A stretch of DNA of 33,446 nt from positions 1-33,446 of the forward strand of contig JALELI010000117.1 in NCBI GenBank assembly GCA_022768785.1. The letters are read 5' to 3'. The notes below the pieces were generated by a model. It was not told the DNA's origin. It did no database searches and was given only the letters and a program-made list of their open reading frames with translations. Below, one piece after another: positions 2,206 through 33,235 of the stretch. The position numbers and the translations under genes are program-made. The stretch's first letter is position 1; the number at the start of each line of letters is the position of its first letter. The stretch is from Arcanobacterium sp. Its GTDB lineage: Bacteria > Actinomycetota > Actinomycetes > Actinomycetales > Actinomycetaceae.

Positions 2206-3579
2206 TCAGAGCACTCCATTGAACACTTCGGTGCTGGCAGGGTGGGTCCAGATGCCATCGCGCAGCATAGCGGCTGGTGCGCCAAGGCGCATAGCCAGAG
2301 CTACGGTGTTAATGAGCTCTTGGGAATCTACGCAGTAGAGCACAGCGCCAAGGATCTCATCGGTATCCGCATCGAGCACGAACTTCGCTAAGCCAGCTGG
2401 ATTGCCCACAATCTTGGGGCGGGGCATAACGGCAATATCGGCGATCTTAGCTTGCTTTACAGCCACGGCGCGCCCAGCTGCGCGCGCTTCGGCTTCGCTC
2501 ATGCCTACGCTCGCTAGTGGTGGATTGAGGAAGATCGTGTGTGGTACGGCCACCCGGTCAGTGGTGGTGCGCTTTCCTTCGCCGAGCAGCTCATCGGCTA
2601 GAATTCTGTGGTCATCGAAAGAAATGTAGGTGAACTGTGGCCCCCCGTTCACATCGCCCACGGCATACACTCCCGCAACGTTAGTGCGTAGATGTTCGTC
2701 TACCTGAATAAAGCCGCGCTCGGTGACGGCGATACCTGCGGCATCAAGGCCAAGCCCAGCAGTGGCAGGAGCGCGGCCAACCGCTACTAATACGGCGTCG
2801 GCGTCAATCGTTCCTTGGTCGGTGTGCACCTGCAGTGATCCCTCAGCGCTCTGCGTGATCTCCTGAACTTTCGAGTTCAGCGCGAATTTCACGCCTTGAG
2901 CTTCGAGATTAGCGTGTGCCTCACTAGCTATATCAGGTGCAAACATGCGCAGTAGACGTTCGCCCGGATCGATCACTGTTACGTTTGATCCGAAGCCGCT
3001 AAACATAGTGGCGAACTCCAGCCCAATCATGCCCCCGCCAATAATGGCCAAACGCTGAGGGAATGGATTGGCATGCTGGATCGTGGTGGAATTGTAGACG
3101 CCGGGAAGATCGGCACCTGGAACCTTTAAAGTGGCTGGAACTGTGCCAGTGTTGATAATGATTGTGGGGGCGTGCAGGGTGATTTCTTCATGGGCATCAC
3201 CCACCGGGGCGCTCTTGCCAGCCGTGGGAGTGATACGCACCTCATGTGCTCCTGTGAAACGTGCCTCGCCGTCGATGAGCAGAGCTTTGCCGTCGAGCAT
3301 TGAATAGTTTACGGCGTTGAGCTTGGAGATGAAGGCATCACGCTCATTCACAGATTTCATGAAATATTGTGCTGGATCATCGTGCTCGCTACGGCGTTCA
3401 GCGAGCGTGATTAGCTTCTTAGTGGGCACGCAGGCAATGTTGATGCAGGTGCCACCATACATCGTGGTAGAGCGCTCCACGAGCGCAACTTTTTTCCCAG
3501 CTGCTATCAGTTTGCTGGCGATTGATTTTCCGGCCTTGCCCCAGCCAATGATCAACACATCGAGATTGAGAGAATCCAT
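2206..3579 (-). CDS. rclA: RclA-like FAD-dependent disulfide oxidoreductase (probable hypothiocyanous acid reductase)
   Basis: 457 residues, group I flavoprotein disulfide reductase. An N-terminal FAD Rossmann motif (IIGWGKAGKS, residues 10-19) is followed by the redox-active pair C45-INIA-C50 in GGTCINIACVPTKK. A second Rossmann fold (IIGGGMIGLEFA) binds NAD(P)H, the AVGDVNGGPQFTYIS segment follows, and the dimerisation domain ends in the catalytic-type HPASTE (H446, E451). The GKAGK start, MYGGTCINI and GPQFTYIS with a following DDHRI are characteristic of RclA/Har rather than Lpd, Gor or MerA, and no mercury-binding cysteines are present. RclA homologues reduce HOSCN and protect against reactive chlorine species and copper. 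It is cytoplasmic and probably monocistronic, with GAGGA upstream of ATG and a hairpin after the stop. No RclR-like regulator or RclB/RclC partner adjoins it. Confidence 0.85.
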   Translation of the reverse strand: MDSLNLDVLIIGWGKAGKSIASKLIAAGKKVALVERSTTMYGGTCINIACVPTKKLITLAERRSEHDDPAQYFMKSVNERDAFISKLNAVNYSMLDGKALLIDGEARFTGAHEVRITPTAGKSAPVGDAHEEITLHAPTIIINTGTVPATLKVPGADLPGVYNSTTIQHANPFPQRLAIIGGGMIGLEFATMFSGFGSNVTVIDPGERLLRMFAPDIASEAHANLEAQGVKFALNSKVQEITQSAEGSLQVHTDQGTIDADAVLVAVGRAPATAGLGLDAAGIAVTERGFIQVDEHLRTNVAGVYAVGDVNGGPQFTYISFDDHRILADELLGEGKRTTTDRVAVPHTIFLNPPLASVGMSEAEARAAGRAVAVKQAKIADIAVMPRPKIVGNPAGLAKFVLDADTDEILGAVLYCVDSQELINTVALAMRLGAPAAMLRDGIWTHPASTEVFNGVL

Positions 3580-4188
3580 TTTATTTTATCCTCACTGTAG
3601 TGATATTTCCGCGCTCTTGAGCAGGCGCTCGCGTGCAGCTAGCTAGCAGTACGCTGAGCTTCTGCAGCAGTGGTACGTTCATACGCTGAAGGTGTATAAC
3701 GTGCACGTAACCGCATTAATTCTCTTTCATTGTGTGAGGTGCGCCGCTCGAATGATGGTTTGGGCATGGCTGGGTGTACTTAGTTGCGCTTGGGTTGGGT
3801 GTGTGCCGATTGAGTATGGGGGGCATGGCGCTGAAGTTATTTGCGATTTTGTGTGTTGCTCGGCGTGTTGTGGAGGCTGCTGCTTTGCTGTGCAATGGCT
3901 CAGGCTACCTATCTGCAATCTCAATGGTCGCTGCGAGTGCTAATAATTAAAGTTAGAGTTTAAAAAACTAATGTAAAACTTTAATTTTGCTATTAGGATA
4001 TGGGTCAAAGAGGCTAACGGTGTGCTGTGGCGCACGCTGGCAGCCAACGGAATGCAATAGGGGAAAGGCCCACGGCAGAGTGCGGCTTAGCAGGGAGTGG
4101 CCGGCGGAGCTCGGGCACACTGCATACGCAGAGTGGTTTGTTGCTCGGCTGCCAGCTTTGTAGCTATCAGCGAGGATTGGAGTATGTG
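3580..4188. other. long intergenic region between divergent rclA-like gene and DUF2975 operon
   Basis: About 600 bp with no convincing gene. It contains a 10-bp palindrome ACGTGCACGT (3699-3708), a possible minus-strand TATACA box just inside it, and an AT-rich nested inverted repeat at 3945-3986. The 83-residue Cys/Trp-rich ORF at 3692-3943 lacks a ribosome-binding site and any family resemblance and is not annotated. Promoters for both flanking transcripts should lie here. Confidence 0.5.
3945..3986. repeat. AT-rich nested inverted repeat
   Basis: Outer arms AATTAAAGTT and AACTTTAATT are perfectly complementary. Inner arms AGTTT and AAACT surround AAA. This 42-bp AT-only island stands out from the surrounding GC-richer DNA and may be a regulator or nucleoid-protein site upstream of the DUF2975 operon. 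Confidence 0.6.
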
Positions 4189-4542
4189 ATGCAGAAAGAC
4201 CCCCAGAACAATATGGAAGAGCGCACAACTTTCAAAGCAGAGCACCCAGCTCTCAAATCGGCTTCCAACGCGGTTTTTGATGTAGCTCCGATCTCGCAGC
4301 GGCAGGCTCTCGAAAATCTCAAATGGCGCACGCGCACTGACATCTGGGTGTGTGCAGGATTGGCCGCTTTTCTCGCAATATTGGGAATCGTGCAAGTTAC
4401 ACAGTTTTTCATTGACCCGAGTTCCCGAGGAGATCTTGTGGAAGTTGGCAGCGCGTACCTATTTGGGGCGCTAGCATTGGCCGTTATGTTCGCGCTCTTT
4501 CGTGAAGCTGTGCGCACGGGGAAACCTTTTCCACATCAGTGA
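4189..4542 (+). CDS. DUF2975 membrane protein, N-terminal part
   Basis: 117 residues from ATG 4189, chosen because GGAG lies six nucleotides upstream; the longer ORF from 4027 has no support and begins in non-coding-looking sequence. A charged N-terminus precedes two hydrophobic segments (about 60-80 and 88-108 of this product) and the family motif FREAVRTGKPF. DUF2975 proteins normally run on through a motif like GxPFspenvrrLR into two more helices. Here the frame ends in a stop three residues after GKPF, while the continuation VIRKLRVIGF lies in the -1 frame, beginning at a GTG that overlaps the stop (GTGA). Either the gene is broken, it is frameshifted during translation, or it has become two coupled half-proteins. 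Function is unknown; the family is usually paired with a YozG-type regulator, as here. Confidence 0.65.
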   Translation: MQKDPQNNMEERTTFKAEHPALKSASNAVFDVAPISQRQALENLKWRTRTDIWVCAGLAAFLAILGIVQVTQFFIDPSSRGDLVEVGSAYLFGALALAVMFALFREAVRTGKPFPHQ

Positions 4543-4760
4543 TCCGCAAGCTCCGTGTGATCGGTTTTATTGTGGCAATGGCGTGTGTGATTCCACCCAA
4601 TCTGAGGCTGCTTGCTGATATGGCTCGTTTTGGTGAAGGAAATGCGCAGTTCCCTCCCATCACGGCAGTGCTTTTGGCTCTTGGAGTGGCTGTGATGATG
4701 ATCGGTGAAGTGTTTTGCTATGGGCAAGCGCTGCAAGACGACGTTGATTACATCGCGTGA
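4539..4760 (+). CDS. DUF2975 membrane protein, C-terminal part
   Basis: 73 residues in the -1 frame relative to the preceding ORF. It starts with the conserved IRKLRVIGF segment, then a hydrophobic helix, an exposed loop (NLRLLADMARFGEGN), a final helix and the family-typical end GEVFCYGQALQDDVDYIA. Joined to the upstream product without a gap, spacing across the PF...RKLR motif matches intact DUF2975 proteins. The GTG at 4539 overlaps the upstream stop by four bases, so re-initiation is possible, but no independent ribosome-binding site is apparent. It overlaps the next gene by another GTGA. Confidence 0.6.
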   Translation: MIRKLRVIGFIVAMACVIPPNLRLLADMARFGEGNAQFPPITAVLLALGVAVMMIGEVFCYGQALQDDVDYIA

Positions 4761-4984
4761 AAGGCTCGAAAGTGATTGTGGTGCATTTAGACCGCGTGAT
4801 GCTAGATAGGAAACTTTCACTCGGAGAACTCGCAGAGCGAATCGGCATGAGCAGCGTGAATCTCTCCAACCTCAAGACCGGGAAAATGAAAGGTATCCGA
4901 TTTTCCACGCTAGCTGCACTGTGCCGTGAGCTGGAGTGCCAGCCGGGAGATTTGCTTGGATATGTGCGCGAGGCCGCTGAGTAG
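4757..4984 (+). CDS. YozG-type small HTH (Cro/C1) transcriptional regulator
   Basis: 75 residues, nearly all one helix-turn-helix domain: LSLGELAERIGMSSVNLSNLKTGK is the HTH and IRFSTLAALCRELECQPGDLL is the conserved rest of the Xre/YozG fold. The GTG start overlaps the DUF2975 stop in GTGA, so the two are translationally coupled. DUF2975-YozG gene pairs are common in Firmicutes and Actinobacteria, and the regulator is thought to control its membrane partner. The target here is not known. Confidence 0.85.
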   Translation: MKGSKVIVVHLDRVMLDRKLSLGELAERIGMSSVNLSNLKTGKMKGIRFSTLAALCRELECQPGDLLGYVREAAE

Positions 4985-5214
4985 GCCACTCAGGAAACTG
5001 CGGTGTCTGAAGCCTGGATATCAATGAGTGGTGCTGCAGTGAAGCGGTGCGCTGAAGGGGCACGTTGAAGCTAACTCGCGTGATCAGTCGATATGTGCAG
5101 AACTCCGGTGCCGCCTCATATTGATCAGCTTGGGCAAAACGTATGGCGTTAAGCGATGCGCAGCTGCGGTAGCTGCTGTAGTTTGCCCGGGGAAATCGCT
5201 GCTAGGCTGGAATC

Positions 5215-32113: not shown

Positions 32114-33235
32114 ATGAATGCTGCGGAGAAACTCCCGTTAGTGAACGCGATCCAGCCGTTTGACGGCGCCGTGCAGAGTGGCATTGTACAACCCGGCCCA
32201 GCGCACCTAGAGGTGTTGGCTTTTGATCTGAACGAAGGAGTGGGGAAAGAGCAACTCATCAAGCTGATGAAAGAGTGGACGCCGCTTGCTCGATATCTCA
32301 CTCAGGGGCGGGCTGCCGAGGTGCCGAACTTTTACTCGCCAGAAATGGTGGAGGCTGTGGCCAACTTAACCATCACCGTGGGGTTTGGCGAACGTGTATT
32401 CGATCTCATTGGTAAGAGTGAGCTCAAGCCCGAGGGGCTGCACGATATCCCGGCTTTTACCCATGATCGTTTACAAGAACAGTGGGGGCAGAGCGATTTG
32501 ATGCTTCAAATCTGCACCGATGATCCGGTGACGCTCTTTATGGCTGCCCGTATGATGATTAAAACAGCGCTGCCTGTGGCTCACGTGAAATGGCTACAGA
32601 AAGGTTTCGGCCATGCGTTTGGTGCAGCTCCTATGGGGGCTACGCCGCGAAATCCGATGGGCTCTATTGACGGCACCGTGAATCCTAGATCTGATGAAGA
32701 CTGGGCTGAGCAGGTGTGGATCGATTCAGACCAGGCCTATTTGAAGAATTCTTCTATTATGGTAGTGCGGCGGATCGCGCTAGACCTCGATGCCTGGGAG
32801 AAGCTTGATGATCTCGGGCGGGGCAAGGTGATCGGCCGCGATCATCACACTGGCGCACCGCTCTCTGGCGGAAGTTCCGAGTTTGATGAAGAGGATATGG
32901 ACGCCACAGATACCGATGGCAACTATTTAATCGACCGCAACTCCCATCTGGCGCTCTCGCGTGAGCAAGATGGATTGCCCAACGATGCGCTCCGGCGCCG
33001 TGCGTATGCGTACGACGACGCACTCAACCCACATGTGAAAACTTCCACGAATTCGGGCTTGGTGTGGATCGCTTTCCAAAAGAATCCAGATAAGCAGTTT
33101 ACGGCGATTCAGAAACGGTTGGATAAATCGGATCTGCTCAACGAGTTTGTAGCGCATATTGGCTCGGCCGTCTATTGGATCGTGCCGGGCACGCGGCCAG
33201 ATAGCTACTGGGGGCAGGCCTTGCTCGAAGCCTGA
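32114..33235 (+). CDS. Dyp-type heme peroxidase without Tat signal
   Basis: 373 residues with AGGAAGGA upstream of ATG. Two ferredoxin-like halves carry the Dyp signature GxxDG (G183-SI-D186-G187, followed by TVNP), the likely proximal heme ligand H278 in NSHLALSR, and distal Arg in LRRRAYAYDD (294-296). GLVWIAFQKNPDKQFTAIQKRL and YWIVPGT near the end resemble the EfeB (class A) branch. EfeB enzymes are normally exported through Tat after heme loading, but this protein begins directly in the domain with no twin-arginine signal or hydrophobic segment, so it is predicted cytoplasmic. No efeU or efeO gene is seen on this side. It would use hydrogen peroxide to oxidise dyes, phenolics or porphyrins. 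Confidence 0.92.
   Translation: MNAAEKLPLVNAIQPFDGAVQSGIVQPGPAHLEVLAFDLNEGVGKEQLIKLMKEWTPLARYLTQGRAAEVPNFYSPEMVEAVANLTITVGFGERVFDLIGKSELKPEGLHDIPAFTHDRLQEQWGQSDLMLQICTDDPVTLFMAARMMIKTALPVAHVKWLQKGFGHAFGAAPMGATPRNPMGSIDGTVNPRSDEDWAEQVWIDSDQAYLKNSSIMVVRRIALDLDAWEKLDDLGRGKVIGRDHHTGAPLSGGSSEFDEEDMDATDTDGNYLIDRNSHLALSREQDGLPNDALRRRAYAYDDALNPHVKTSTNSGLVWIAFQKNPDKQFTAIQKRLDKSDLLNEFVAHIGSAVYWIVPGTRPDSYWGQALLEA

Follow-up and report, generated by a model that had tools for sequence, protein, structure and literature searches.

The question raised by this locus is whether the flavoprotein disulfide reductase gene near one end of the window (the whole stretch of Arcanobacterium sp. DNA analysed here, 33,446 nucleotides) encodes an enzyme of the RclA/Har type, members of which destroy hypothiocyanous acid (HOSCN) in other bacteria (PMC11107202), or one of the related enzymes that a generic annotation would name. 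Inspection of the open reading frame placed the gene exactly where the earlier note had put it, with the minus strand as a detail not given there. The gene is intact, with an ATG start, 457 codons and 0 internal stops, and the same interval read on the plus strand contains many stops. Pfam analysis of the 457-residue protein identified Pyr_redox_2, Pyr_redox and Pyr_redox_dim, the usual layout of a class-I flavoprotein disulfide reductase, and no heavy-metal-associated (HMA) domain, so that there is no N-terminal metal-binding domain of the kind present in mercuric reductase (Hg-MerA). Pfam, the AlphaFold2 model and the PDB matches described below all gave a class-I unit of FAD, NAD(P)H and interface domains without an added metal-binding domain. 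The gene and its functional codons are as follows.

2206-3579, minus strand: coding sequence of an RclA/Har-type flavoprotein disulfide reductase, 457 amino acids (open reading frame, HMM, Pyr_redox_2 and Pyr_redox_dim domains, tree, structure match)
3526-3537, minus strand: codons of K15-A-G-K18, active-site lysine pair equivalent to Har K13/K16 (alignment; residues named in PMC11107202)
3430-3447, minus strand: codons of C45-INIA-C50, redox-active CXXXXC equivalent to Har C43/C48 (alignment)
3022-3039, minus strand: codons of GGGMIG (residues 181-186), a GXGXXG nucleotide-binding motif, with the acidic D204 after it (sequence; rule from PMC11107202)
2605-2643, minus strand: codons of GPQFTYISFDDHR (residues 313-325), clade signature (56-row comparison)
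2227-2244, minus strand: codons of H446-PAST-E451, HXXXXE acid/base pair equivalent to Har H425/E430; in the dimer it is provided by the partner subunit (alignment; PMC11107202)

The determinants of HOSCN reduction in Har are K13 and K16, together with C43/C48 and H425/E430, and the lysine pair is said to occur only in Har, MerA and RclA (PMC11107202). All six of these residues align in the window protein (K15, K18, C45, C50, H446 and E451) and are kept in 29/29 rows of its own branch in a 56-row comparison, in which the lysine pair was present in 0/18 rows representing Lpd (dihydrolipoamide dehydrogenase), GR (glutathione reductase), Hg-MerA and similar enzymes. The cleanest markers of the RclA/Har clade against nearly all other rows were M40, N91, Y318, I319, D322, P354 and N424, of which Y318, I319 and D322 distinguish the clade from the sister group as well as from Lpd, GR and Hg-MerA. 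The motifs quoted earlier as specific to RclA were all found, at residues 14-18 (GKAGK), 40-48 (MYGGTCINI), 313-320 (GPQFTYIS) and 322-326 (DDHRI); the claim of specificity needed correction in two places. The GKxGK lysine pair also occurs in the uncharacterised group that is sister to the RclA/Har clade, and the lysine pair alone is therefore no proof of a HOSCN reductase, while the GP that precedes QFTYIS marks the actinobacterial branch (27/29 rows) and is GL in RclA, Har and Staphylococcus aureus MerA.

Variation in the lysine pair was also observed elsewhere. Four loci of the sister group (L031, L032, L034 and L123) have GKAGK and CINVAC, lack MYGG and FTYIS, and carry FTHAS or FTHVS instead; other matches scoring 340-370 bits probably belong to the same uncharacterised group. 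On the Har/MerA side, the gene at L047:5001-6305 (Pseudogracilibacillus auburnensis) lacks the lysine pair (GSGTAGAK) and keeps FTYIS and DD.R. Tandem pairs of RclA-type genes occur at L116-L128 (genomes G439, G584, G492 and G524 of family f29), each with one canonical copy (GKGGK, MYGGTCINVAC; L116, L117, L119 and L120) and one copy without the lysine pair (GTAGR or GAAGK, MYGGACVN.AC; L125-L128). The copies without the lysines fall together in a single supported clade (100/98) within the RclA clade and offer a naturally occurring test of the lysine hypothesis.

In order to place the protein, a main tree of 56 rows was built in IQ-TREE under LG+C20, together with a second tree of 64 rows containing more members of the phylum; Har and S. 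aureus MerA were represented in both by the aligned parts of their sequences only. The RclA/Har/MerA group and an actinobacterial group formed one clade with support of 100/99 in the 56-row tree, outside which fell a small uncharacterised group with the lysine pair, followed by Lpd, GR and Hg-MerA. The 64-row tree agreed with this, with support of 100/98 for the RclA/Har clade. The window protein lies on a separate, mostly Actinomycetaceae branch that is sister to the group holding RclA, Har and MerA, all three of which have been assayed; to our knowledge, no member of the actinobacterial branch itself has been assayed. Forcing the window protein into the Lpd clade was rejected by the AU test (p 8.0e-6), as was forcing it into the Hg-MerA clade (p 5.2e-112). 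The phylogeny proposed as a check thus favoured the original assignment, as the contrary outcome, placement in the Lpd or MerA clade, did not occur in either the trees or the AU tests.

Structural comparison gave the same assignment. The best PDB sequence matches were RclA (6kgy, 357 bits), Har (8uub, 328 bits) and S. aureus MerA (8ajj, 302 bits), with Lpd and others following at no more than 192 bits. An AlphaFold2 model computed for the window protein with the aid of 17 relatives (pLDDT 92.4, pTM 0.89) had as its top 13 PDB matches only Har, RclA or S. aureus MerA chains (TM 0.79-0.91), with E-values mostly between 1e-51 and 1e-55, and the first other enzyme, an Lpd, followed at 6e-46. Har from Streptococcus pneumoniae was the best fold match (TM 0.91; 42.9% identity) and shares the K/K pair, CXXXXC and HXXXXE, but belongs to the other branch, has GLQFTYIS where the window protein has GPQFTYIS, and has Gly at the position of A49 ahead of the resolving Cys. 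S. aureus MerA, likewise of the other branch, shares the fold and the catalytic residues at 40.4% identity. Escherichia coli RclA shares all catalytic residues, fold and clade (42.6% identity over 434 columns), whereas the window protein exceeds it by approximately 16 residues, has insertions near 60-75 and 118-132, falls in the actinobacterial sister branch, and is encoded outside any rclABC/rclR locus.

The three best NCBIfam models for the window protein were NF005572 (431.8 bits), NF041853 (hypothiocyanous acid reductase MerA, 430 bits) and NF040477 (RclA, 429 bits), all of them below their curated cut-offs of 537, 650 and 740, respectively; in the same search E. coli RclA scored 870 bits against its own model, NF040477. 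The protein therefore fails the thresholds both for RclA sensu stricto and for the S. aureus-type HOSCN reductase MerA, the scores themselves being far beyond chance. No NCBIfam model was over cut-off for it, including TIGR01350 (dihydrolipoyl dehydrogenase, 313 bits) and TIGR02053 (mercury(II) reductase, 272 bits). With every NCBIfam score under its threshold, the protein could well be given a generic name, and the warning that such annotation would miss the gene was borne out in that no HOSCN or RclA model tested attains its cut-off.

A generic annotation would make the protein a dihydrolipoamide dehydrogenase or a mercuric reductase, and membership of the same superfamily and the TIGR01350 and TIGR02053 scores lend this some colour. 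However, these scores are lower than those of the RclA/Har models, the HMA domain is absent, a separate Lpd-type gene is present at G000:C86, and both identities are ruled out on placement by the AU tests, leaving this annotation with practically no probability. Another reading makes the enzyme a general reductase that acts on some low-molecular-weight disulfide or other electrophile and substitutes for a missing glutathione or mycothione reductase. The genome contained no mycothione reductase above cut-off in a single search and no clear MshC, and C45/C50 and H446/E451 are common to low-molecular-weight disulfide reductases. Against this stand K15/K18 and the clade residues, which are absent from GR, Lpd and Hg-MerA, and the firm grouping with HOSCN reductases in both trees, so that such a role appears improbable.

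Still less probable is that the enzyme is mainly a Cu(II) reductase protecting the cell from copper and oxidant, the role originally put forward for E. coli RclA. E. coli RclA does reduce Cu(II) in vitro, with HOCl sensitivity altered by copper (PMC7527725), and the top fold matches to the window protein include structures of RclA with bound Cu(II); but RclA turns over copper slowly, at about 4.4 per min (PMC7527725), compared with HOSCN reduction near the diffusion limit for RclA and Har (PMC11107202), and no recognised copper genes adjoin the window gene. The motifs, the supported tree, the AU tests and the structure comparison together identify the protein as RclA/Har-type, and not as an Lpd, Hg(II) reductase or glutathione reductase. 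It is very probable, by homology, that the product is a HOSCN reductase like RclA, Har and S. aureus MerA, encoded by a stand-alone gene and protecting the cell from hypothiocyanous acid. In favour of this reading, the window gene and the Lpd-type gene were the only clear CXXXXC class-I reductases found in the genome, which is 96.5% complete, and no mycothione reductase reached its cut-off.

As a HOSCN reductase of this class, the enzyme would be a cytoplasmic, homodimeric, FAD-containing disulfide reductase. Its FAD would be reduced by NADH, probably in preference to NADPH, as suggested by the GXGXXG motif and the acidic residue ending the second strand under a rule based on GXGXXG and a missing Arg pair (PMC11107202), and the reduced FAD would in turn reduce the C45-C50 disulfide. 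K15 and K18 would draw in OSCN-, with protonation aided by H446/E451 of the other subunit; C45 would then react with OSCN- to form a sulfenyl thiocyanate, which C50 would resolve with release of SCN- and re-formation of the disulfide. The predicted result is a cell shielded from hypothiocyanous acid of lactoperoxidase or myeloperoxidase origin by a gene acting alone, without adjoining rclB, rclC or rclR.

The gene neighbourhood is consistent with a stand-alone gene. There is no same-strand gene upstream for several hundred bases, and an inverted-repeat search located a feature just beyond the stop codon.

2164-2195, no strand assigned: perfect 14-bp inverted repeat with a 4-base loop, approximately 11 bases beyond the stop codon, a probable transcript end (function predicted from the repeat)

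Given this stem-loop after the stop codon and the lack of an upstream same-strand gene, the window gene is probably transcribed alone. Promoter-like sites around it were no commoner than in shuffled sequence. Downstream of the stem-loop lie an unassigned protein gene and then a GntR-type regulator (together 553-1808), and divergent from the window gene lie a small membrane-protein ORF and then an HTH_26 regulator (together 4027-4985). None of rclB, rclC and rclR, which accompany rclA in E. coli, lies beside the window gene, its neighbours being the GntR-type regulator, membrane protein and HTH_26 genes; an RclR query, run without a positive control, had no match in the genome, and no known redox- or HOSCN-responsive regulator was found adjoining the gene. 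Across 13 other loci there was no conserved neighbourhood, bar an aldo/keto reductase-like gene at the two nearest relatives (both of genus g25) that is absent here.

Several other features of the window were recorded. A perfect 16-bp inverted repeat, ATTTGTATCAATACAA/TTGTATTGATACAAAT, at 1861-1895 lies over a promoter-like site (1908-1879, minus strand) upstream of the 553-1808 genes and is likely the operator of the GntR-type regulator. The membrane-protein ORF appears to be interrupted near 4530, where a shift by one base carries the reading into another frame, due to either a frameshift or a sequence error. At the contig edge, 29-594 contains a tRNA-Met (29-103) and, after it, tandem repeats of 78 bp and 157 bp that are nearly perfect, and 32114-33235 contains a Dyp-type peroxidase gene.

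Within the genus, an RclA-type gene was found in 3/10 genomes. The two congener copies are only 50-55% identical to the window protein and group elsewhere in the tree, its nearest relative (71% identity) belongs to another genus, and a single genus clade was rejected by the AU test (p 1.6e-5), which together indicate repeated gain, loss or exchange. The gene is probably both stand-alone and mobile. An empty-site comparison with congeners found the neighbouring M18 aminopeptidase gene conserved and its surroundings not, so that the insertion point cannot be shown. It is unlikely, although less so than the rival functions weighed above, that the actinobacterial branch prefers a substrate other than the HOSCN of the assayed sister branch (such as a different oxidant of peroxidase origin, or a low-molecular-weight disulfide of actinobacteria) and has spread between genera as a single-gene cassette. 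A relative at L036:4995-6377 (Mobiluncus porci) has an in-frame TGA (L036:5025) at the W13 codon, just before GKSGK, with the other 449 codons open; this is a recent nonsense change or a sequence error, and recoding is unlikely because the gene's own stop is also TGA.

A count based on the list of matches and on the tree put the RclA type in approximately 25/200 sampled genomes of the family Actinomycetaceae and approximately 10/396 elsewhere in the phylum, an enrichment for which the Fisher p of 3e-6 is rough because the family and phylum searches used different queries and limits. Carriers of the full RclA signature outside the family include actinobacterial genomes of 6-9.4 Mb, and the type therefore extends beyond the small genomes typical of host adaptation. 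The proposal that the gene reflects adaptation to host secretions is thus in keeping with the family enrichment, but is weakened by the full-signature genes in these large genomes. A host association among the named loci looked strong and was set aside together with its Fisher value, as hosts had been coded by the analyst and short patterns had determined the sample.

RclA has been reported in 284 species, including Actinobacteria, nearly always colonisers of epithelia (Derke et al. 2020, PMC7527725). As published family surveys already include Actinobacteria (PMC7527725), the finding is expected and the conceptual gain small: the RclA/Har assignment is sound, and the gene is a correct but ordinary member of a known family. 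What is gained is the correction of a likely generic annotation, and the recognition that curated models overlook an entire Actinomycetaceae branch of probable HOSCN reductases, with 0 above the NF041853 cut-off in the sampled family genomes. Pneumococcal colonisation of mice requires Har (PMC11107202), and if the predicted HOSCN activity is true, these bacteria would have in common with the pneumococcus a defence that is known to be important when it colonises.
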